Source of the DNA: Myxococcota bacterium
GTDB lineage: Bacteria > Myxococcota > Polyangia > GCA-2747355 > JAKLHH01
Direction: 5' to 3'
DNA: 13,298 nucleotides
Assembly: GCA_022710245.1 (NCBI GenBank)
Contig: JAKLHH010000073.1
Coordinates: 1 to 13,298, forward strand
How positions within the stretch are numbered: the stretch's first letter is position 1; the number at the start of each line of letters is the position of its first letter. Under the pieces are notes generated by a model. That model saw only the letters and a program-made list of their open reading frames with translations. It was not told where the DNA came from and made no database searches. Both the position numbers and the translations under genes were made by a program. Of this stretch, positions 1 through 11,741 are shown one piece after another.

Positions 1-9
1 CTTCTTCAT
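1..9 (-). CDS. Start of a leftward gene cut by the window edge
   Basis: Only the first three codons are inside the window: on the minus strand ATG AAG AAG (Met-Lys-Lys), with the ATG at 9-7. The call rests on context rather than protein: a GGAGGT ribosome binding site lies 8 nt before the ATG (minus strand, 18-23) and a plausible sigma-70 promoter lies upstream. Met-Lys-Lys is a common beginning of secreted proteins and lipoproteins, but nothing can be said about function. The gene is divergent from pbpC. Confidence 0.55.
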
Positions 10-47
10 GGGGACGACCTCCAGTGTGTTTTGACCCCCAAGTCGAA

Positions 48-77
48 ATTCGAGGCGTCCCCAACTTCTTTCGTCAA
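48..77 (-). promoter_or_regulatory. Candidate sigma-70 promoter for the left-edge gene
   Basis: On the minus strand there is a TTGACG -35 box (77-72), an 18-nt spacer and a TCGAAT -10 box (53-48, 4 of 6 matches to TATAAT). Transcription would begin near 41, leaving a leader of about 30 nt that contains the GGAGGT ribosome binding site. The first 100 bases are clearly richer in A+T than the rest of the window, as expected for a promoter region. Confidence 0.45.
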
Positions 78-105
78 GCATTCTTCTCTTCTACCACTGA
101 CTCCC

Positions 106-124
106 GCGGCGCCCCACGCGCCGC
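106..124. other. Perfect 7-bp hairpin in the pbpC leader
   Basis: GCGGCGC (106-112) and GCGCCGC (118-124) flank a 5-nt loop. It lies between the left-edge promoter and the preferred pbpC start at 151, so it would be in the pbpC leader RNA. It has no T tract. Such short GC stems arise easily by chance at this base composition, so a role is only a possibility. Confidence 0.25.
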
Positions 125-150
125 CTCGTTGTTGCTGCGAGACCTGTCGC

Positions 151-2718
151 GTGACTGAGAGCTGCACTCGGTCATCCAGTGCCGCATCCCGCGCGGGCTC
201 CTGGCTGCGCGCCCGCACCTGGGACCGCCTCCCCTCGGGTGCACGACGCGTGCTCGGTGCCCCCGCGCGCGCGCTGTCTTCGGTCGCTTCGCTCGCACCG
301 TCGGGGAGCCGGCGACGACGCGTCCTCGGCGCGCCGGCGCGCCTGCTCTCTCGTCTCGCGCCCCCGGGGAGCTGGCGGCGGCGCCTGGTCAAGGCGCTCG
401 GGCTCCTCGCGCTGGTCTTCTACAGCTTCCACCTGCTGCCGCACCGCCCGCTCGCTGACCGCTTCCCCTCCTCGGTCGCCGTCCTCGCGGCCGACGGCAC
501 CCTGCTCCGCCTCACCCTCGCCGAGGACGGCCAGTACCGCCTGTGGACGCCGCTGCCCGAGATCGCGCCGGCGCTGGTGCAGGCGACGCTCCTCTACGAG
601 GACCGCGCCTTCCGCTGGCATCCGGGCGTGAACCTCGCCGCGCTGGTCAGGGCGGTGAGCCAGACCTACCTCCGCGGCGGACCGCGCCAGGGCGGCTCGA
701 CGCTGACCATGCAGCTCGCCCGCCGCCTCTACGGGATCGACTCGCAGCGCGTGTGGGGCAAGCTGCAGCAGATCGCGGGCGCGCTCTACCTCGAGCTCCG
801 CTACAGCAAGCGCGAGCTCCTCGAGGCCTACCTCAACCTGGTCCCGCTCGGCGGCAACCTCGAGGGCGTCGGCGCCGCGAGCCTGGTCTACTTCGGCAAG
901 CCGGCGAGCCGCCTGCAGGTCGCCGAGGCGCTCACCCTCGCGGTGATCCCGCAGTCACCCTCGACGCGCGGCAACCCGCTCGCGCGCGGCAAGCGGCCGC
1001 CCGCCGGGCTCCTCGCGGCGAGGGCGCGCCTCTGGGCGAGCTACCGCTCGCGCCACGCCACCACCGCCGCCGATCGCGCGGCGATGCAGCTCCCGCTCTC
1101 GCTGCGGGGCCTCGGCGAGCTCCCCTTCGCCGCGCCGCACCTCACCGACGCGCTCCTCGCGCAGGCCGCCGCCCGCGGCCCCTCCGGCGCCGCCGAGCGC
1201 GTCATCCGCACCACCCTCTCGCTCCCGCTGCAGCGGATCGTCGAGCGGCAGCTCACTCTGCACGTGGAGCGCCACGCCCGCCTCGGCGTGCAGAACGCGG
1301 TGGCGATGCTGGTCGACGCGCGGACCATGTCGGTGCAGGCCCTCGTCGGCTCGGCGGACTACTTCAATAACGAGATCGCCGGGCAGGTCAACGGCGCCGC
1401 GGCCAAGCGCTCGCCCGGCTCGGCGCTCAAGCCCTTCGTCTACGCGCTCGGCATGGACCAGGGGGTGATCCACCCGGACTCGCTGCTGCGCGACGTGCCG
1501 CGCGCCTTCGGCGGCTACAGCCCGGAGAACTTCGACGGGCAGTTCGCCGGCCCCCTCAGCGCCACGCAGGCGCTCACCCGCAGCCGCAACATCCCCGCGG
1601 TGGGCGTCGCCGCGCACCTCAACCGCCCCACCATCTACCAGTTCCTCAAGACCGCCGGCGTCCTCCTGCCCAGGCCCGAGGAGCACTACGGCCTCGGGCT
1701 GGTCCTCGGCACCGGCGAGGTGACGATGCAGGAGCTCTGCGAGCTCTACGCCGCGCTCGCCAGCGGCGGGGTGGTGCGACCGCTCCGCTTCCGCCAGCGC
1801 GACCCGCTCGCCCCGGGCGTGCGCGTCCTCTCCGCGGAGGCCTCCTTCCTCACGCTGGAGATGCTGCGCGAGGGGCCGCGGCCCGACTGGGCGAGCGTCT
1901 CGGGGAGCCGCGCGCGCAAGGACGTGGCCTGGAAGACGGGCACCTCGTGGGGCTTCCGCGACGCCTGGACCGCGGGGGTCCTCGGGCCCTACGTCCTCGC
2001 CGTCTGGGTCGGCGACTTCTCCGGCGCGAGCAACCCCGCCTTCGTCGGCATCACCGCGGCGGCGCCGCTCTTCTTCTCCATCGCCGACGCGATCCGCGCC
2101 GAGCACCCCGACCGCTTCCCGCGCAAGCGCCCGAGGCCGCCGCAGGGCGTGGCCAAGGTCGAGCTCTGCGCCCTCACCGGCGCGCTGCCCGGCCCGCACT
2201 GCCCGCACCGCAAGCCGGGCTGGTTCATCCCCGGCCGCTCCTCGATCGAGCCCTGCGCGGTGCACCAGGAGCTCGAGCTCGACCTCGCGAGCGGCGAGCG
2301 CGTCTGCGGGCCGCACGAGGGCAGAACGCGCAAGGAGGTCTACGAGGTCTGGCCCTCGGAGCTCGCCGCGCTCTTCGCCCGCGCCGGGCTGCCGCGCCGC
2401 CCGCTGCCGCCGCCCGGCCCCGGCTGCCTCGCGCTCGAGCAGGAGCGCGGCAAGCCGCCGCGCATCACCTCGCCGCTCGCCAGCGCGCGCTACCTCCTCA
2501 ACCCGCGGCGGAGCGCCTGGGAGCCGGTCCCCTTCCTGGCCGAGCTCGAGGGCGACGCGCGCCGCGTCTTCTGGCACGTGGATCGCCGCTTCGTCGGCAG
2601 CTCCGACGCCGGCAAGGCCTTCCTCTGGCGGCCGCAGCCGGGGACGTACCTGGTCCGCGCCGTCGACGATCGCGGGCGCTCGGACAGCGTCACCCTGCGC
2701 GTGGAGCTGGCGCAGTGA
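151..2718 (+). CDS. pbpC: Penicillin-binding protein 1C (bifunctional class A PBP)
   Basis: This is an inner-membrane peptidoglycan synthase with glycosyltransferase and transpeptidase activities. Numbering is from GTG 151 (855 aa; E. coli PbpC is about 770). A basic N-terminus precedes a membrane anchor at about 82-96. The GT51 domain shows the catalytic E150-D151 in EDRAFRWHPG and the QGGSTLTMQL motif at 180-189. The transpeptidase domain shows SALK (Ser424 nucleophile, Lys427), SRN (478-480) and KTGTS (595-599). A Cys-rich linker (from about 673) and a C-terminal BiPBP_C domain (about 768-855) are typical of the 1C class. The frame is open back to TTG 31, but 31-150 has poor codon bias and overlaps the divergent promoter, so I prefer GTG 151; GTG 250 is also possible. 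The last codons overlap the start of the transpeptidase gene, so the two are probably co-expressed. Family assignment is secure; the start is not. Confidence 0.93.
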   Translation: MTESCTRSSSAASRAGSWLRARTWDRLPSGARRVLGAPARALSSVASLAPSGSRRRRVLGAPARLLSRLAPPGSWRRRLVKALGLLALVFYSFHLLPHRPLADRFPSSVAVLAADGTLLRLTLAEDGQYRLWTPLPEIAPALVQATLLYEDRAFRWHPGVNLAALVRAVSQTYLRGGPRQGGSTLTMQLARRLYGIDSQRVWGKLQQIAGALYLELRYSKRELLEAYLNLVPLGGNLEGVGAASLVYFGKPASRLQVAEALTLAVIPQSPSTRGNPLARGKRPPAGLLAARARLWASYRSRHATTAADRAAMQLPLSLRGLGELPFAAPHLTDALLAQAAARGPSGAAERVIRTTLSLPLQRIVERQLTLHVERHARLGVQNAVAMLVDARTMSVQALVGSADYFNNEIAGQVNGAAAKRSPGSALKPFVYALGMDQGVIHPDSLLRDVPRAFGGYSPENFDGQFAGPLSATQALTRSRNIPAVGVAAHLNRPTIYQFLKTAGVLLPRPEEHYGLGLVLGTGEVTMQELCELYAALASGGVVRPLRFRQRDPLAPGVRVLSAEASFLTLEMLREGPRPDWASVSGSRARKDVAWKTGTSWGFRDAWTAGVLGPYVLAVWVGDFSGASNPAFVGITAAAPLFFSIADAIRAEHPDRFPRKRPRPPQGVAKVELCALTGALPGPHCPHRKPGWFIPGRSSIEPCAVHQELELDLASGERVCGPHEGRTRKEVYEVWPSELAALFARAGLPRRPLPPPGPGCLALEQERGKPPRITSPLASARYLLNPRRSAWEPVPFLAELEGDARRVFWHVDRRFVGSSDAGKAFLWRPQPGTYLVRAVDDRGRSDSVTLRVELAQ

Positions 2719-3767
2719 GCCGGGGAGCGGCGCCGCACAGGTCGGGCGGTCGTGCGGAGCTGCCGCGACCAACACCCTCCCGATGCTCTGCCACCTCCAG
2801 GGCGGCAACCGCGTCCATCCTCGCCTCGCTTGTGCTCCTCGCCGCCTGCAGCGATGAGCGCTCCGGCGCGCAGCGCCTGGCCTCCGAGGGGCTCACGCTG
2901 CGCGCGCTCCTCGCGCACCCCTTCTACCTGGTCAAGGAGGGCGGCACGCGGAGCCTGCCGCCGCGCGAGCAGAAGCTGCTCCGCGGCTTCGGCGTCACCG
3001 TGCGCGAGGTCCTGGTCGAGAAGGGGGAGCGGATCGGGGTCACGGCGAGCGGCCTCCGCCTGCGCCTGCGCGACCTCGAGCCGCCGCTCCTCGCGCCCTT
3101 CGAGGGGGTCGAGCTCCTCGGCCGCCCGCTCGAGCTCGCCTGGGTGCTCCGCGACGGGGCGCCGCTCCTGCGCGCGCCCGAGCCCGGCGCGCGCGCGGTG
3201 CGTCGCCTCGCCCGCCTCGCGCGCGTGCAGCTCGCGCGCCGCGACGGACCGGCGGGCTTTCGCGCGGTCGCCGGCGGCTGGATGCGCGAGGCCGACCTGG
3301 CGATCCCCACCCTCTCCAGCCGCCCGCCCGAGGTGGGCCCAGGCGAGCGCTGGCTCGACGTCAGCCTCCGCTCGCAGACGCTGGTCGCCTACCAGGGCAG
3401 CCGCCCGGTCTTCGCCACGCTGATCTCGAGCGGCGTCGGCGGCCCCGGCAGCGCCTTCGCCACGCCTGTCGGCACGCACCGCATCATCGCCAAGCGCCTG
3501 ATGACCTCGATGTCGAACCTCGAGCACACCGGCGTCGACGCCTACTACTCCTACGAGGAGGTCCCGCTCGCGCAGTTCATCGGGCGCCAGGCGCTGCACG
3601 GCGTCTACTGGCACGACGGCTTCGGCCAGGTGAAGAGCCACGGCTGCGTCAACCTCTCGCTCCGCGACGCGCTCCGGCTCTTCGACTTCACCAGCCCGAC
3701 GCTCCCCGCCGGCGCGAGCGAGGTCACCGCGGAGGGGCGAGGGGGGACCGTGGTGCGGGTGCGCTGA
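2715..3767 (+). CDS. Lipoprotein L,D-transpeptidase (YkuD domain)
   Basis: The product is 350 aa. A hydrophobic segment at about 33-44 ends in the lipobox LAAC (Cys45), so it is probably an envelope lipoprotein. Residues 60-190 hold a beta-rich, SH3-like accessory region I cannot name. The C-terminal YkuD catalytic domain carries His295 and the SHGCVN motif at 308-313, with Cys311 as nucleophile. The family makes 3-3 cross-links in peptidoglycan or attaches proteins to it; which one applies here cannot be read. GTG 2715 is the only usual start that keeps the signal peptide. It overlaps the pbpC stop as GTGA, with GGAG 8 nt upstream, which suggests translational coupling. The N-terminal region before the hydrophobic segment is long (about 32 residues), and residues 4-20 are encoded by the 51-nt repeat element, which is odd for a signal sequence. 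Confidence 0.9.
   Translation: MSRGAAPHRSGGRAELPRPTPSRCSATSRAATASILASLVLLAACSDERSGAQRLASEGLTLRALLAHPFYLVKEGGTRSLPPREQKLLRGFGVTVREVLVEKGERIGVTASGLRLRLRDLEPPLLAPFEGVELLGRPLELAWVLRDGAPLLRAPEPGARAVRRLARLARVQLARRDGPAGFRAVAGGWMREADLAIPTLSSRPPEVGPGERWLDVSLRSQTLVAYQGSRPVFATLISSGVGGPGSAFATPVGTHRIIAKRLMTSMSNLEHTGVDAYYSYEEVPLAQFIGRQALHGVYWHDGFGQVKSHGCVNLSLRDALRLFDFTSPTLPAGASEVTAEGRGGTVVRVR
2725..2775 (+). repeat. 51-nt covarying hairpin element, copy 1
   Basis: This copy begins 6 nt after the pbpC stop and matches 10398-10448 at 44 of 51 positions without gaps. The predicted fold has an outer stem 2727-2731/2762-2766 (GCGGC/GCCGC) and an inner stem 2733-2738/2752-2757 (CCGCAC/GTGCGG). A bulged A (2739) and a closing pair 2740-2751 follow. 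The loop GTCGGGCGGT (2741-2750) is identical in both copies, as are the 3' 18 nt. It lies 10 nt past the transpeptidase start codon and is also translated. I do not recognise a known RNA family. Confidence 0.75.
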
Positions 3768-7576: not shown

Positions 7577-7617
7577 TGGGGCTCCGCAATGGATGCGCCC
7601 CGCGAGTGAGCGCGCAG

Positions 7618-7650
7618 CCACCGCGGACCTGCCAGCCGCCAGCGCGGTGG
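7618..7650 (+). promoter_or_regulatory. Hairpin that could cover the RBS of the membrane peptide
   Basis: CCACCGCG (7618-7625) and CGCGGTGG (7643-7650) pair perfectly over 8 bp with a 17-nt loop. The 3' arm runs into GGTGGGA (7646-7652), the only purine-rich stretch at ribosome-binding distance from ATG 7660. The fold could therefore limit translation of that peptide. The fold is read directly; the regulation is inference. Confidence 0.4.
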
Positions 7651-7659
7651 GACGTGACC

Positions 7660-7788
7660 ATGAGAAGGCTCCTCAGCCACGGGATCCTCGACGCGAACCC
7701 CATCGCCGTGGGGGTCTTCCTGGGCATCGTGGTGCTGATCACGGTCGCCTACCTGCTCCGCCGCCTCTGGCTGCGGGACCGGAAGTAA
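7660..7788 (+). CDS. Small single-span membrane peptide (42 aa)
   Basis: The ATG at 7660 opens a 42-residue frame. Residues about 14-33 (from NPIAVGVFLGIVVLITVAYL) form one hydrophobic helix, and the C-terminus RRLWLRDRK is strongly basic, predicting a cytoplasmic C-terminus. A GTG at 7654 would add two residues. Support for a real gene: GC-ending codons across the frame, a position 26 bp before the DUF4388-DnaJ gene in the same direction, and a divergent control region upstream. I recognise no family; it could be a small subunit or regulator of a membrane complex. It is too short for firm homology by eye. Confidence 0.6.
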   Translation: MRRLLSHGILDANPIAVGVFLGIVVLITVAYLLRRLWLRDRK

Positions 7789-7814
7789 ACGGATCGGCAC
7801 TCGAACGAGGGGAC

Positions 7815-10397
7815 ATGACGGCAGCTGCTCGACCCCCAGACGCGCAGGGAGACCTCAACCGCTTCCCCATCCCGCGGCTCCTCTTCTTCCTGCTCAAGAA
7901 GTCGTTCCTCGGCCAGGTCGAGGTGGTGAGCCAGAGCCTGCGCGGGCGCATCTACCTGCGCGACGGCATGCCGGTCTTCACCGACATCATCTCGACCCGT
8001 GACTACCTCGGCCGCATCCTCGTCGAGCGCGGCGCCATCAACGAGCAGACGTTCAACACCTCGCTGCAGCAGCTCGCGACGGCGCGCCAGCTCCACGGTC
8101 AGGTCCTGCTGCAGATGGGCGCCATCGATCAGCGCACCCTGGTCGACGCGCTCCGCCTGCAGCTCCACCGCAAGCTCAACCGGCTCTTCACGCTCGACGC
8201 GGCGCAGATCTCCCTCTACAGCGAGGAGCACCCGTACGGCCTCGAGGGTGAGGGCGCGCTGGTGCAGGCGGACCCGCTCCGCGTCATCTACCAGGGCGTG
8301 CGCAACTGCCTCGACCACCTCCGCATGGCCCCCGAGCTCGACAAGCTGCAGGGGCACATCTTCCGGCTGCGGCCGGGGTTCGAGCGCCGCCAGGCGCGCT
8401 ACGGGATGAGCGAGGACGAGCTCGCGCTGGTCTCGTTCCTGACCGGGAGCGCGGTCTCTGTCGAGGGCGTGCTGCGGGTGAGCCACCTGCCGCCGCTGCA
8501 GACGCTGATGGTGATCTACACGCTGTGGGTCACCGAGGCGCTCGCCGCCACCCCCGACGCCGCCGTCGCGCGGGCGCCGGCGCCCGCCCCCCGCGCCCCG
8601 AGCGCCGAGCTCCCGCCCGTCCCGCGCGAGGGCTCCGCTCCCCGCGCCGAGGTCCCTCCCCTCGCCCGCGTGCCGAGCGCCGAGCTCCGCGCCCAGCACC
8701 TGCGCGAGGGCTCCTCCCCACGCGCCGAGGCCCGCGCGCCGAGCGCCGAGCTCCCGCCCGTCCCGCGCGAGGGCTCCGCTCCCCGCGCGGAGGTCCCTCC
8801 CCTCGCCCGCGTGCCGAGCGCCGAGCTCCGCGCCCAGCACCTGCGCGAGGGCTCCTCCCCGCGCGCCGAGGCCCGCGCGCCGCTGCACGCCTCGTCCTCG
8901 TCGATCCCGGGCTTCGAGGACCTCGCCCGCGCCTTCACCCAGGACATGACCGGGCCCTCGCTGCCGCGCGCAGACGCGCTGGACGTCACCGGGCCCTCGC
9001 TGCCGCGCTTCGACGCGGACACGACATCGCCCTCGCTGCCGCGCGCGTTCGACGGCGAGACGACGGCGACGGAGGGGGCGACGCCGCTCATCCCCACCAT
9101 CGACCTGCCTGGCAGCGGCTCCTCCCCGGTGATCATCGCGCCGCCGCCGGTGATGATCACCCCGCCGCCGCCCGAACTCGGCCCGGCGCCGATCGCCCCG
9201 CCCGCGGGCCTGGGGCCGATCATCATGGGGCCGGAGCCGAGCCCGACGCCGGTGATCACGCCGCCGCCTCCCAGCGGCCCGATCATCATGCCGCCGCCGG
9301 ACGCGCTGGACGTCACCGGCCCGTCGCTGCCGCGCTTCAACCTCGAGATGACGGGCCCGTCGCTGCCGCAGGCGATCGCCCCCCCCGCACCGGCGGGCTA
9401 CGACGTGCCAGACCGGCCGCGGCGCGCCTCGCGCGAGTCCCAGCCCGCGGCGCGCCCGCCCGCGGGGCCGGGGGTCGCCCGCGTCCCCTCCTCGCCGGGG
9501 GCGGCGCTGCCGCGCGTGCCCTCCTCGCCAGGGGCGACGCTGCCGCGCATGCCCTCCTCTCCGGGCCTGCCGCGGGTGCCGGGCGGTCGCGAGGCGTCCG
9601 ACCCCGGCCGGCCGAGTCGGCCGACGGGCCAGACCCCGGCGGTGCCCTCGACGCAGGCGGTGATGGAGCACAAGACCCTGCTCAAGAAGACCCGCGAGCG
9701 GATCAAGGACCAGCACCACTACGACGTGCTCGAGATCAAGCGCGACGCGACCGCGGACCAGGTCCGCGACGCCTACTTCCGCCTGGCCAAGATCTACCAC
9801 CCCGATCGCTGCGCGGCGCTCGGCCTGAGCGACATGAACGCGGTCGCCGAGGAGATCTTCCGTCGCATCAACGAGGCGCACACGGTCCTCACCGACGAGG
9901 CCCAGCGCAAGGCCTACGACGAGGAGCTGGAGGGCGCGCCCTCGAGGAAGGAGGCGCAGAACGCGCTGGAGGCGGAGTTCACCTTTCAGAAGGGCGTCAT
10001 CTTCTTCCGCAAGAAGAACTTCGCCGAGGCGGTGAAGTGCTTCGAGGAGTCGTGGCGGCTCAATGACAAGGAGGGCGAGCACCTGGCCTGGCTCGCCTGG
10101 ACCATCTTCTCCGACCCGAAGAGCAACCGGCAGGCGGTGCTGCCCAAGGCCAAGGAGCGGCTGCTGCAGTCGATCAAGATCTCGCCGCAGAACCCGGTCT
10201 GTCACTACTACCTGGGCGAGGTCTACCTCGCGCTCGGCGATGAGAAGCGCGCCAGGACCTGCTTCCAGAAGACGGTGGAGATCCAGGAGGGCCACGTCGA
10301 GGCGAACCGCCACCTGCGGCTGATGAGCATGCGCAAGGAGAAGGAGGAGTCGAAGGGCAAGGGCCTCTTCGGGCTGAAGCTGGGGAAGAAGAAGTAG
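7815..10397 (+). CDS. DUF4388 (PATAN)-linker-DnaJ-TPR fusion protein
   Basis: The product is 860 aa from ATG 7815, preceded by GAGGGG 2 nt upstream. Residues about 10-60 (GDLNRFPIPRLLFFLLKK) are the start of a DUF4388/PATAN domain, followed to about 245 by helical segments of the kind seen with it (LGRILVERGAI, LLQMGAID). Residues about 250-615 are a Pro/Ala/Arg-rich linker with three repeat families. A J domain follows at about 634-700 (HHYDVLEI, then HPD at 662-664), and TPR-like helices at about 720-835 (FFRKKNFAEAVKCFEESW, HYYLGEVYLALGDEKRARTCFQKTVE). The tail is Lys-rich (KLGKKK). No membrane segment or signal is seen. The HPD motif predicts stimulation of a DnaK-type ATPase; PATAN domains are linked to signalling and motility assemblies. 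The combined role is unknown. The frame is open upstream to 7593 but that part has another gene in it. Confidence 0.88.
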   Translation: MTAAARPPDAQGDLNRFPIPRLLFFLLKKSFLGQVEVVSQSLRGRIYLRDGMPVFTDIISTRDYLGRILVERGAINEQTFNTSLQQLATARQLHGQVLLQMGAIDQRTLVDALRLQLHRKLNRLFTLDAAQISLYSEEHPYGLEGEGALVQADPLRVIYQGVRNCLDHLRMAPELDKLQGHIFRLRPGFERRQARYGMSEDELALVSFLTGSAVSVEGVLRVSHLPPLQTLMVIYTLWVTEALAATPDAAVARAPAPAPRAPSAELPPVPREGSAPRAEVPPLARVPSAELRAQHLREGSSPRAEARAPSAELPPVPREGSAPRAEVPPLARVPSAELRAQHLREGSSPRAEARAPLHASSSSIPGFEDLARAFTQDMTGPSLPRADALDVTGPSLPRFDADTTSPSLPRAFDGETTATEGATPLIPTIDLPGSGSSPVIIAPPPVMITPPPPELGPAPIAPPAGLGPIIMGPEPSPTPVITPPPPSGPIIMPPPDALDVTGPSLPRFNLEMTGPSLPQAIAPPAPAGYDVPDRPRRASRESQPAARPPAGPGVARVPSSPGAALPRVPSSPGATLPRMPSSPGLPRVPGGREASDPGRPSRPTGQTPAVPSTQAVMEHKTLLKKTRERIKDQHHYDVLEIKRDATADQVRDAYFRLAKIYHPDRCAALGLSDMNAVAEEIFRRINEAHTVLTDEAQRKAYDEELEGAPSRKEAQNALEAEFTFQKGVIFFRKKNFAEAVKCFEESWRLNDKEGEHLAWLAWTIFSDPKSNRQAVLPKAKERLLQSIKISPQNPVCHYYLGEVYLALGDEKRARTCFQKTVEIQEGHVEANRHLRLMSMRKEKEESKGKGLFGLKLGKKK
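8595..8876 (+). repeat. 141-bp coding tandem duplication in the linker
   Basis: Two head-to-tail units (8595-8735 and 8736-8876) encode the same 47 residues (261-307 and 308-354). I see three base differences, all synonymous (GCC/GCG, GCC/GCG, CCA/CCG). Each unit is itself two diverged half-units built on the pattern PSAEL...REGS-PRAE. Recent unequal exchange or slippage followed by selection on protein sequence fits the pattern. Confidence 0.9.
8943..9371 (+). repeat. Five scattered (D/E)xT(G/S)PSLP(R/Q) motifs in the linker
   Basis: The motif starts at residues 377, 390, 402, 499 and 511 of the DnaJ fusion (nt 8943, 8982, 9018, 9309, 9345). DALDVTGPSLPRF occurs identically twice. The copies are separated by unrelated Pro-rich sequence, so they look like short linear motifs rather than a simple tandem array. 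Further on, PSSPG occurs three times between nt 9484 and 9570. Confidence 0.75.
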
Positions 10398-10448
10398 GAG
10401 CGGCGCCCCGCACGTCGGGCGGTGGCGGGCAGCTGCCGCGACCAACAC
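10398..10448 (+). repeat. 51-nt covarying hairpin element, copy 2
   Basis: This copy begins at the base after the stop codon of the DnaJ-fusion gene. The outer stem is 10400-10404/10435-10439 (GCGGC/GCCGC). The inner stem is 10407-10411/10425-10429 (CCCGC/GCGGG), then a bulged A (10412) and the pair 10413-10424. The loop is GTCGGGCGGT (10414-10423). Compared with copy 1, three pairs have changed on both sides. There is no T run after it, so it is not an ordinary intrinsic terminator. Confidence 0.75.
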
Positions 10449-10489
10449 GTAGCCCGCTCCGCCCTCGCTCCCGCTGCTCCTGCACTCAC

Positions 10490-10522
10490 CTGCTCACGCC
10501 CTGCTCACGCCCTGCTCACGCT
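10490..10522. repeat. Three tandem 11-bp repeats (CTGCTCACGCC)
   Basis: CTGCTCACGCC occurs at 10490-10500 and 10501-10511, and as CTGCTCACGCT at 10512-10522; a degraded unit (CTGCACTCAC) precedes them. They lie in the 184-bp gap between the convergent DnaJ-fusion and mtnA genes. Apart from the 51-nt element, I see nothing else in this gap. A slippage product is the simplest explanation. Confidence 0.7.
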
Positions 10523-10581
10523 CTGGCATTCGGCTTCTTACCGACGCTGCCCCCGCTGCCCACACGGTCCTGCCCCCCGGC

Positions 10582-11658
10582 TCACTTCTCAGGCGAAGAG
10601 AAGAGCGCGGCGATGGTCTCCTCGCAGGGCGGGCGGGCGAGGCCGACCTCGGTGATGACCGCCGTGACGAGCTCCCGCGGCGTCACGTCGAAGGACGGGT
10701 TGCGCACGCCGACGCCGTCCGGCGCGAGCTGCGTCTCGCCGAGGTGGGTGACCTCGCGCGCCGCGCGCTCCTCGATCGGGATGCCGCTCCCGTCGGCGGT
10801 GGCGCGGTCGATGGTCGAGCGCGGCGCCGCGACGTAGAACGGCAGGCCGTGGTGGTGGGCGAGCACCGCCACGCTGAAGGTGCCGATCTTGTTCGCCACG
10901 TCGCCGTTGCGCGCGATGCGGTCCGAGCCCACGACGACGCAGGTGATCTCGCCCCGCCGCATCAGCGCGCCGGCCATGTTGTCGCAGATCAGCGTGACGT
11001 CGATGCCGTCGCGGTGGAGCTCCCACGCGGTCAGCCGCGCGCCCTGCAGGTAGGGCCGCGTCTCGTCGGCGACGACGCGGATCCGCTTGCCCGCCTCCAC
11101 CGCCGCGCGCACCACCCCGAGCGCGGTGCCGTAGCCGCCCGTGGCGAGCGCGCCGGCGTTGCAGTGGGTGAGCACGGTGGCGCCGTCGGGGATGAGCGCC
11201 GCGCCGTGCCGGCCGATGGCGCGGCAGCAGGCGATGTCCTCGTGCCAGATCGCGATCGCCTCTCGCTCGAGCGCCGCGCGCGCCGCGGCCGGACCCTCCG
11301 CGGCGAGGACCCGCTCGCCGACCTGCCGCTGCCGCTCGAGCGCCCAGAAGAGGTTCACCGCGGTGGGGCGCGAGGCCGCCAGCTCGGCGCAGGCCGCGGC
11401 CAGCCCCTCGTGAAACCCCGCGCGCTCGTCGGGGAGCTGCCGCGCGGCGGCGGCGACCCCCATGGCCGCCGCGCAGCCGATGGCCGGCGCCCCGCGGATC
11501 ACCATCTCGCGGATCGCGCGCGCGACCTCGCCCGCGCTGGCGTAGCTGTGCCAGACCTCGCGCGTCGGCAGGAGGCGCTGGTCGAGCATCACGACCTTGC
11601 CCTCGTCCCAGTAGAGCGGGCTCAGGCACTCCTCCCAGAGCTTCTTCTTCTCGCTCAT
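10582..11658 (-). CDS. mtnA: S-methyl-5-thioribose-1-phosphate isomerase
   Basis: The product is 358 aa, normal for the family. It converts methylthioribose-1-phosphate to methylthioribulose-1-phosphate in the methionine salvage pathway, in the cytoplasm. Visible family motifs are RGAPAIG (55-61), the catalytic Cys166 in [36 protein letters not shown] (197-214), and the catalytic Asp246 in [17 protein letters not shown]. These favour MtnA over the related eIF2B alpha/beta/delta proteins, which lack the catalytic pair. The ATG at 11658 has GAGGAG 3 nt upstream. It follows gatB in the same direction after 90 bp; no other salvage gene is in view. No riboswitch-like structure is obvious ahead of it apart from the hairpin at 11676-11710. 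Confidence 0.95.
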
Positions 11659-11675
11659 CGTCTCCTCGCGTCGTC

Positions 11676-11710
11676 GCGGCGCCGCACCGGCCTGGGTGGT
11701 GCAAAGCCGC
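11676..11710. other. Two-tier hairpin in the gatB-mtnA gap, shaped like the 51-nt element
   Basis: Outer arms GCGGC (11676-11680) and GCCGC (11706-11710) enclose inner arms GCACC (11684-11688) and GGTGC (11698-11702) with 3-nt internal loops on each side. The first 12 bases (GCGGCGCCGCAC) equal those of copy 1 of the 51-nt element, but the loop and 3' flank differ. On the transcribed minus strand it would be in the mtnA leader. Confidence 0.35.
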
Positions 11711-11741
11711 GGCGATCTGCAGCGCCTCTCTCGAAGGCGGG

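Follow-up and report, generated by a model that had tools for sequence, protein, structure and literature searches.

A hairpin repeat directly behind two stop codons on a Myxococcota contig, on balance a REP-like element

The window, by which we mean the whole 13,298-nt stretch of DNA analyzed here, was modelled as ten genes on the basis of open reading frames, Pfam matches and third-position GC. Three of these run rightward, being a 5'-truncated gene for a PBP1C-like protein, ykuD, which encodes an L,D-transpeptidase lipoprotein, and a gene encoding a DnaJ-DUF4388-TPR protein (here dnaJ), the last of which converges with mtnA and gatB (Table 1). No transposase was found in the scanned genes of the window. 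GatB groups within a 36-row clade (support 100/100), the names in these rows being Deltaproteobacteria, Proteobacteria and Myxococcales bacterium, and GatB has an IF-2B neighbor in 9 of 12 loci (L015–L026); the lineage is probably Myxococcota. Relatives sharing 77–78% GatB identity exist. The nearest genome found, G381, shares 72% GatB identity with the window and is an order-level relative; four genomes of its order were compared. The window further contains a 141-nt tandem repeat within dnaJ (8590–8882), a 44-nt direct repeat whose copies are 93% alike, located where gatB starts and the contig ends (13210–13298), and, behind copy 2 of the element described below, a tandem repeat of 3.4 copies of CCTGCTCACGC (10489–10525).

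Table 1. Coordinates of the features discussed, in the window unless a locus of a related genome is given.
Feature	Position	Strand	Remarks
PBP1C-like gene, 5' cut	1..2718	+	Transgly, Transpeptidase, BiPBP_C; TGA 2716-2718, 5 nt before copy 1
Place in copy 1 equivalent to the foot of copy 2	2720..2726	+	CCGGGGA: CGGG in place of copy 2's GTAG
Element copy 1	2724..2775	+	45/52 identity with copy 2; covariance model R1, 84.4 bits
Copy 1 hairpin	2727..2766	+	Outer stem GCGGC/GCCGC, inner stem, 10-nt loop GTCGGGCGGT at 2741-2750; 13 pairs, 3 compensatory
Copy 1 invariant 3' tail	2767..2775	+	GACCAACAC
YkuD L,D-transpeptidase lipoprotein gene, codon-biased part	2832..3767	+	YkuD domain
DnaJ-DUF4388-TPR gene (dnaJ)	7593..10397	+	TAG 10395-10397, last G common to copy 2
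REP-like foot of copy 2	10394..10399	+	GTAG (TAG = dnaJ stop codon) followed by unpaired GA
Element copy 2	10397..10448	+	45/52 identity with copy 1; R1, 83.6 bits
Copy 2 hairpin	10400..10439	+	Loop GTCGGGCGGT at 10414-10423
Copy 2 invariant 3' tail	10440..10448	+	GACCAACAC
mtnA-like (IF-2B) gene	10582..11658	-	Convergent with dnaJ across copy 2
Weak hairpin relative	11673..11722	+	Between gatB and mtnA; R1, 15.4 bits, E 0.041; not counted as a copy
G381 repeat family	L052:5386-5445, L055:10737-10797, L097, L104, L109, L095, L111, L101		
G335 RAYT-family gene	L091:5974-6630	-	NF047646, 80.7 bits, cut-off 80

Two copies of a 52-nt element, alignable without gaps, lie behind the PBP1C-like gene and dnaJ, respectively. 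The preliminary description had placed them at 2725–2775 and 10398–10448 with 44 of 51 positions identical, and coordinates, gapless alignment and identity all held on realignment; extension by one identical base at the 5' side then gives 45 of 52. The 10-nt loop and the 18-nt 3' part are the same in both. In 12 order-3 Markov simulations, compared with the internal dnaJ repeats excluded, the best ungapped 52-nt self-match reached 35–37 identities, against 45 observed, and the likeness between the copies ends abruptly at the borders of the 52 nt. A scan with a covariance model of the element (R1) revealed no inverted partner near either copy.

Both copies had been said to begin 0–6 nt past the stop codon of a rightward gene, which is correct for the start points then used. 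The setting of copy 1 is unidirectional, between PBP1C and ykuD, and that of copy 2 is convergent, and the neighboring genes are unrelated. The element stands behind two of the three rightward genes; when both strands were scanned with R1 without filters, none of the seven leftward gene ends had it, barring one weak match on the opposite strand behind gatB. The hairpin at this site has GCGGCGCCGCAC in common with copy 1; as a third window copy it is suggestive only and possibly due to chance. The ykuD reading frame is open back to a GTG at 2715, and copy 1 was considered as part of a coding N-terminal extension of YkuD. This is disfavored because codon bias is absent, with a GC3 of 29/39 in 2715–2831 versus 304/311 in 2832–3767, and because the lipobox cysteine would lie at residue 45, versus residues 7–20 in relatives (by a simple pattern, found in 21 of 27), which have short signal peptides. 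From the low GC3 and the short signal peptides of these relatives, copy 1 is most likely untranslated and situated in the gap before ykuD.

The seven differences between the copies occupy element columns 12, 14, 17, 28, 30, 32 and 34. The first reading of this DNA had assigned six of them to three stem pairs that change together, and the 52-nt alignment bears this out: pairs 12/32, 14/30 and 17/28 are altered on both sides with Watson–Crick pairing retained, the last of these one step out of register across bulged A16, and column 34 is unpaired. The remaining ten of the 13 pairs are invariant between the copies and hence uninformative. With seven substitutions placed at random, 51 of 200,000 trials produced three compensatory pairs in the same register and 4,284 of 200,000 did so when any nested register was permitted, and sliding the 3' partners by 1–3 columns left no pair with a change on both sides. 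A column-shuffle control, which has little power, reached the observed value in 65 of 500 cases. Extra stability of the hairpin relative to dinucleotide shuffles was found for neither copy (z +0.46 and +0.11). The covariation comes from two sequences and from a structure picked after the data were seen. The earlier claim of selection on the fold stands in part: a constraint on the hairpin is supported by the paired changes, within the limits of two sequences whose folding energies are like those of shuffles. For the speculative pseudoknot of the preliminary description, the invariant loop and tail offer no covariation. The hairpin repeat is, at the level of these two sequences, real and structure-constrained.

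Further copies were then a matter of pattern and model searches, both of which could overlook diverged copies. A pattern scan of 84,980 GTDB species returned 14 matches; the 14-nt spacing of the window copies was seen in none, nor did the part between the two halves resemble the element in any. In viral contigs none of three element patterns matched and the DnaJ protein had no relative, and short matches were obtained in plasmids with copy 1 as the query (best E 0.2 among the matches listed, from 16 plasmid records) and in phages with copy 2 as the query (best E 0.07 among the matches listed, the best 20 of 194 records). Matches to R1 at E ≤ 0.01 were present in 2 of 377 genomes of the phylum, versus 3.8 expected by chance, and at E ≤ 0.02 in 5 of 317 genomes of the class, versus 6.3 expected; these genome sets overlap, and all seven matches fall within open frames of 402–889 codons. 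The four order genomes gave none. With cmsearch, the best score was 17.7 bits in 416 kb of relatives' DNA and 21.6 bits outside the window in 1.0 Mb that included it, versus 84 for the window copies. Since few first-look candidates were scored per genome (at most 15 in the phylum, 18 in the class and 150 in the order), with no positive control, the genome searches speak against close copies only. Additional copies, which the preliminary description had proposed to look for by model search, were thus not convincingly present in the relatives searched, the host genome lying outside this test. Within the window, Rfam 15 gave no match at gathering score. On elements of this sort, whether in myxobacteria or described as structured RNAs, the literature search found nothing relevant, which leaves absence in print unproven. 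An integron attC site was dismissed by eye against the attC core motifs.

Repeats at stop codons do occur in order relatives. G381 has its own dispersed hairpin/terminal-repeat family, which is modular, with ends AAACATGG/CCATGTTT and, in aligned windows, ends such as TAAACATGG, TGAACCCGG and TAGACGTGG. No dispersed repeats were apparent in the first 340 kb of G381 and the family emerged only with a larger sample, being first noticed as repeated 16-mers and then followed by a mismatch search, which gave eight matches. A profile made from seven copies recovered all of them in 752 kb at E < 1e-3, together with two weaker matches. The element end is overlapped by the stop codon of a gene-like ORF in four of the seven copies, and six of the seven have a stop no more than 27 nt away. 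Clustering of 538 windows taken behind stop codons put 12 into a single group, which by our own count represents nine distinct places; control windows inside genes (100-nt windows, slightly different filter) formed clusters of at most three. Another genome, G385, offered just four usable 3' windows. Homology between the window element and the G381 repeat was rejected, the best E of the profile search being 3.1; four of 28 pairwise shuffle tests gave p < 0.05 (range 0.013–0.04), uncorrected. A second relative, G335, carries a RAYT-family gene flanked by 60-nt inverted repeats, 80% complementary and beginning GGGGTCAC, a start that fits the published TIRYT motif GGGGWSAS, and a relative of this inverted repeat is located behind a TAG in another contig (L152, near 2136). 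The window element, with ends GGAGCGGC and GACCAACAC, does not have GGGGWSAS at its ends. Y1 transposase matches at E ≤ 1e-8 were found in 79 of the 306 class genomes searched, and in G381 there were none. Elsewhere in G335, the stretch following the stop codon of its PBP1C relative (L038, behind 8524) groups with three further 3' stretches from G335, and loci L037, L129, L131, L166 and L169 contain GGGCCTC heptamer arrays shortly past stop codons.

We read the window element as, on balance, a lineage-specific, REP-like dispersed hairpin repeat. A REP-like dispersed repeat had been one of three roles offered for it at the outset and fits best, with the foot of copy 2 and the 3'-end positions of both copies matching GTAG-type REPs. 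What is observed for this reading are the two copies, the three compensatory pairs and the position at stop codons; further copies, mobility, the enzyme and any effect on the transcript are inferred. A Y1/HuH transposase of RAYT/TIRYT type, acting in trans, would use the hairpin in single-stranded DNA as its substrate and spread copies to tolerated sites directly 3' of stop codons. A fold needed either by the enzyme acting on DNA or within the 3' UTR of the mRNA would keep the stem paired while its letters change, and outer stem, loop and tail would stay fixed as contact sites. Counting for the REP-like reading are a repeat and co-changes that exceed simulation, placement at the stop codon of two unrelated genes, the location of copy 1 in non-coding sequence, and order relatives with a stop-codon repeat (G381) and a RAYT-family gene (G335). 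Counting against it are that just two copies are known, that copy 1 has CGGG, that basal stem and loop deviate from the published rule, that an inverted partner near either copy, a transposase among the scanned window genes and a clear excess of GTRG hairpins in G381 or G335 are lacking, and that the G381 repeat is non-homologous and its genome without a Y1 match at the threshold used. The absence of the element elsewhere would not be surprising, because REP families may be confined to one species according to passages of PMC3733652. That unrelated hairpin families abut stop codons in one uncultured order suggests that insertion directly behind stops is a recurrent habit of such elements.

A more far-reaching version, speculative and in our view unlikely, is that the element represents an undescribed class of stop-codon-anchored mobile hairpins of this uncultured order, targeting or recreating stop codons, here featuring a stem in two tiers, a 10-nt loop and a 3' tail that are both fixed, and a possible loop–tail pseudoknot (GUCG/CGAC); a RAYT/TIRYT-like enzyme would move them, and they would also serve as 3' UTR elements. 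If that were true, the unrelated G381 family would show this habit a second time.

The same conserved parts could instead mark a cis-acting structured RNA at mRNA 3' ends, where the fixed loop and tail would be bound by a protein or RNase that determines where the transcript ends or how stable it is, selection and not mobility keeping the copies. The invariant 10-nt loop and 18-nt 3' part, the compensatory stem change and the sense orientation of both copies directly 3' of a stop codon are in line with this account; a fold energy no better than that of shuffles, the lack of Rfam matches, unrelated host genes and the lack of a convincing copy in the relatives searched speak against it, and we consider it possible but rather unlikely. 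Improbable, in turn, is a terminator hairpin, factor-dependent or lacking a U-tract, that is used again behind several genes. Such a terminator would agree with copies behind stop codons, with copy 2 between convergent genes and with a weak leftward site in copy 2 (10409–10397, minus strand; tail TACTTCTTCT; one found versus 0.1 expected) that could serve mtnA. However, neither the loop nor the tail would have to be fixed in a terminator, copy 1 is flanked by rightward genes on both sides, ykuD following soon after, and terminator-like sites were found on the plus strand at neither copy and on neither strand at copy 1. A G+C-rich hairpin followed by a T-run, as in an intrinsic terminator, is absent from the plus strand at both copies, and the earlier suggestion of an unusual terminator is unsupported as regards a rightward intrinsic one. 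The weak terminator-like site in copy 2 reads toward the dnaJ end. A one-off duplication without function, its co-changes due to luck, would suit the two known copies and the 4,284 trials in which any nested register sufficed, but is very improbable given the 51 trials in one register, the abrupt end of likeness at 52 nt and the placement of both copies at stop codons.

Returning to the REP-like reading, the closest comparison is with GTAG REPs. As set out in passages of PMC3733652, these are 20–40 bp elements with an unpaired GTAG end that are found near 3' ends in convergent or unidirectional settings, the GTAG end often supplying the TAG stop; sub-families are split by complementary stem residues, GTAG-1/2 have an unpaired dinucleotide ahead of the stem and a conserved 3-bp motif after it, and some elements overlap N-terminal ORF ends and are maybe noncoding. 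Tagged REPs are described there as known predominantly from gamma- and alphaproteobacteria. Passages of PMC3686654 give GTAGGAGCGAGCyyGCTCGCGA as a Pseudomonas example, and a search rule in passages of PMC6006769 asks for a palindrome directly downstream of the tag, made of a basal stem of 7–20 nt and either a loop of 2–5 nt or a second stem across a 1–3 nt bulge. A 5'-terminal GTRG 0–2 nt ahead of the stem marks GTAG REPs.

When counted as a composite pattern, the copy 2 foot has one occurrence in the window, none in 703,542 bases of the loci examined, none in 751,796 bases of G381 and a single one in 247,317 bases of G335, these sequence sets being overlapping. GTRG-tagged hairpins as a family were rejected for both relatives, with no excess in G381 (49 versus 30, 37, 58 and 92 for control heads) and no clear excess in G335 (19 versus 10, 5, 26 and 22).

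The inverted repeats of TIRYT type in G335 resemble the window element in their order of bacteria, in the RAYT-family enzyme present in G335 and in ends behind TAG stops, and differ in being longer and flanking a gene, no sequence likeness having been noted. The G381 family is alike in order, dispersal and ends that overlap stop codons (4 of 7 copies), and unlike in being modular, with its own ends and no detectable homology. Relative to GTAG-1/2 of Pseudomonas, as given in the passages of Di Nocera 2013 (PMC3733652) and Nunvar 2013 (PMC3686654), copy 2 has the same layout, GTAG-GA-GCGGC...GCCGC-GA. The window element is extragenic and, as in the GTAG REPs of these passages, positioned near 3' ends and variable in complementary stem residues, with the TAG supplied by the tag in copy 2. 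The initial statement that no named family fits was therefore too strong, since the copy 2 foot and both positions match published GTAG-type REPs, albeit with some defining features absent. Copy 1 differs in having CGGG and no GTRG; the basal stem is 5 bp, with bulges, a long inner stem and a 10-nt loop, outside the search rule of PMC6006769; 52 nt are conserved and the stem-loop by itself measures 40 nt, versus the GTAG REP size quoted above; and the fixed 10-nt loop and fixed 9-nt tail set the element apart. A high copy number and a cognate RAYT flanked by the repeat, as expected of GTAG REPs, are not known for the window element, which is seen in two copies in 13.3 kb; the RAYT-family gene of G335 is flanked by other inverted repeats. 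Because copy 1 is without GTRG, the basal stem short and the loop long, we do not file the element as a canonical GTAG REP; by analogy, it would work like a REP, as opposed to being a GTAG REP.
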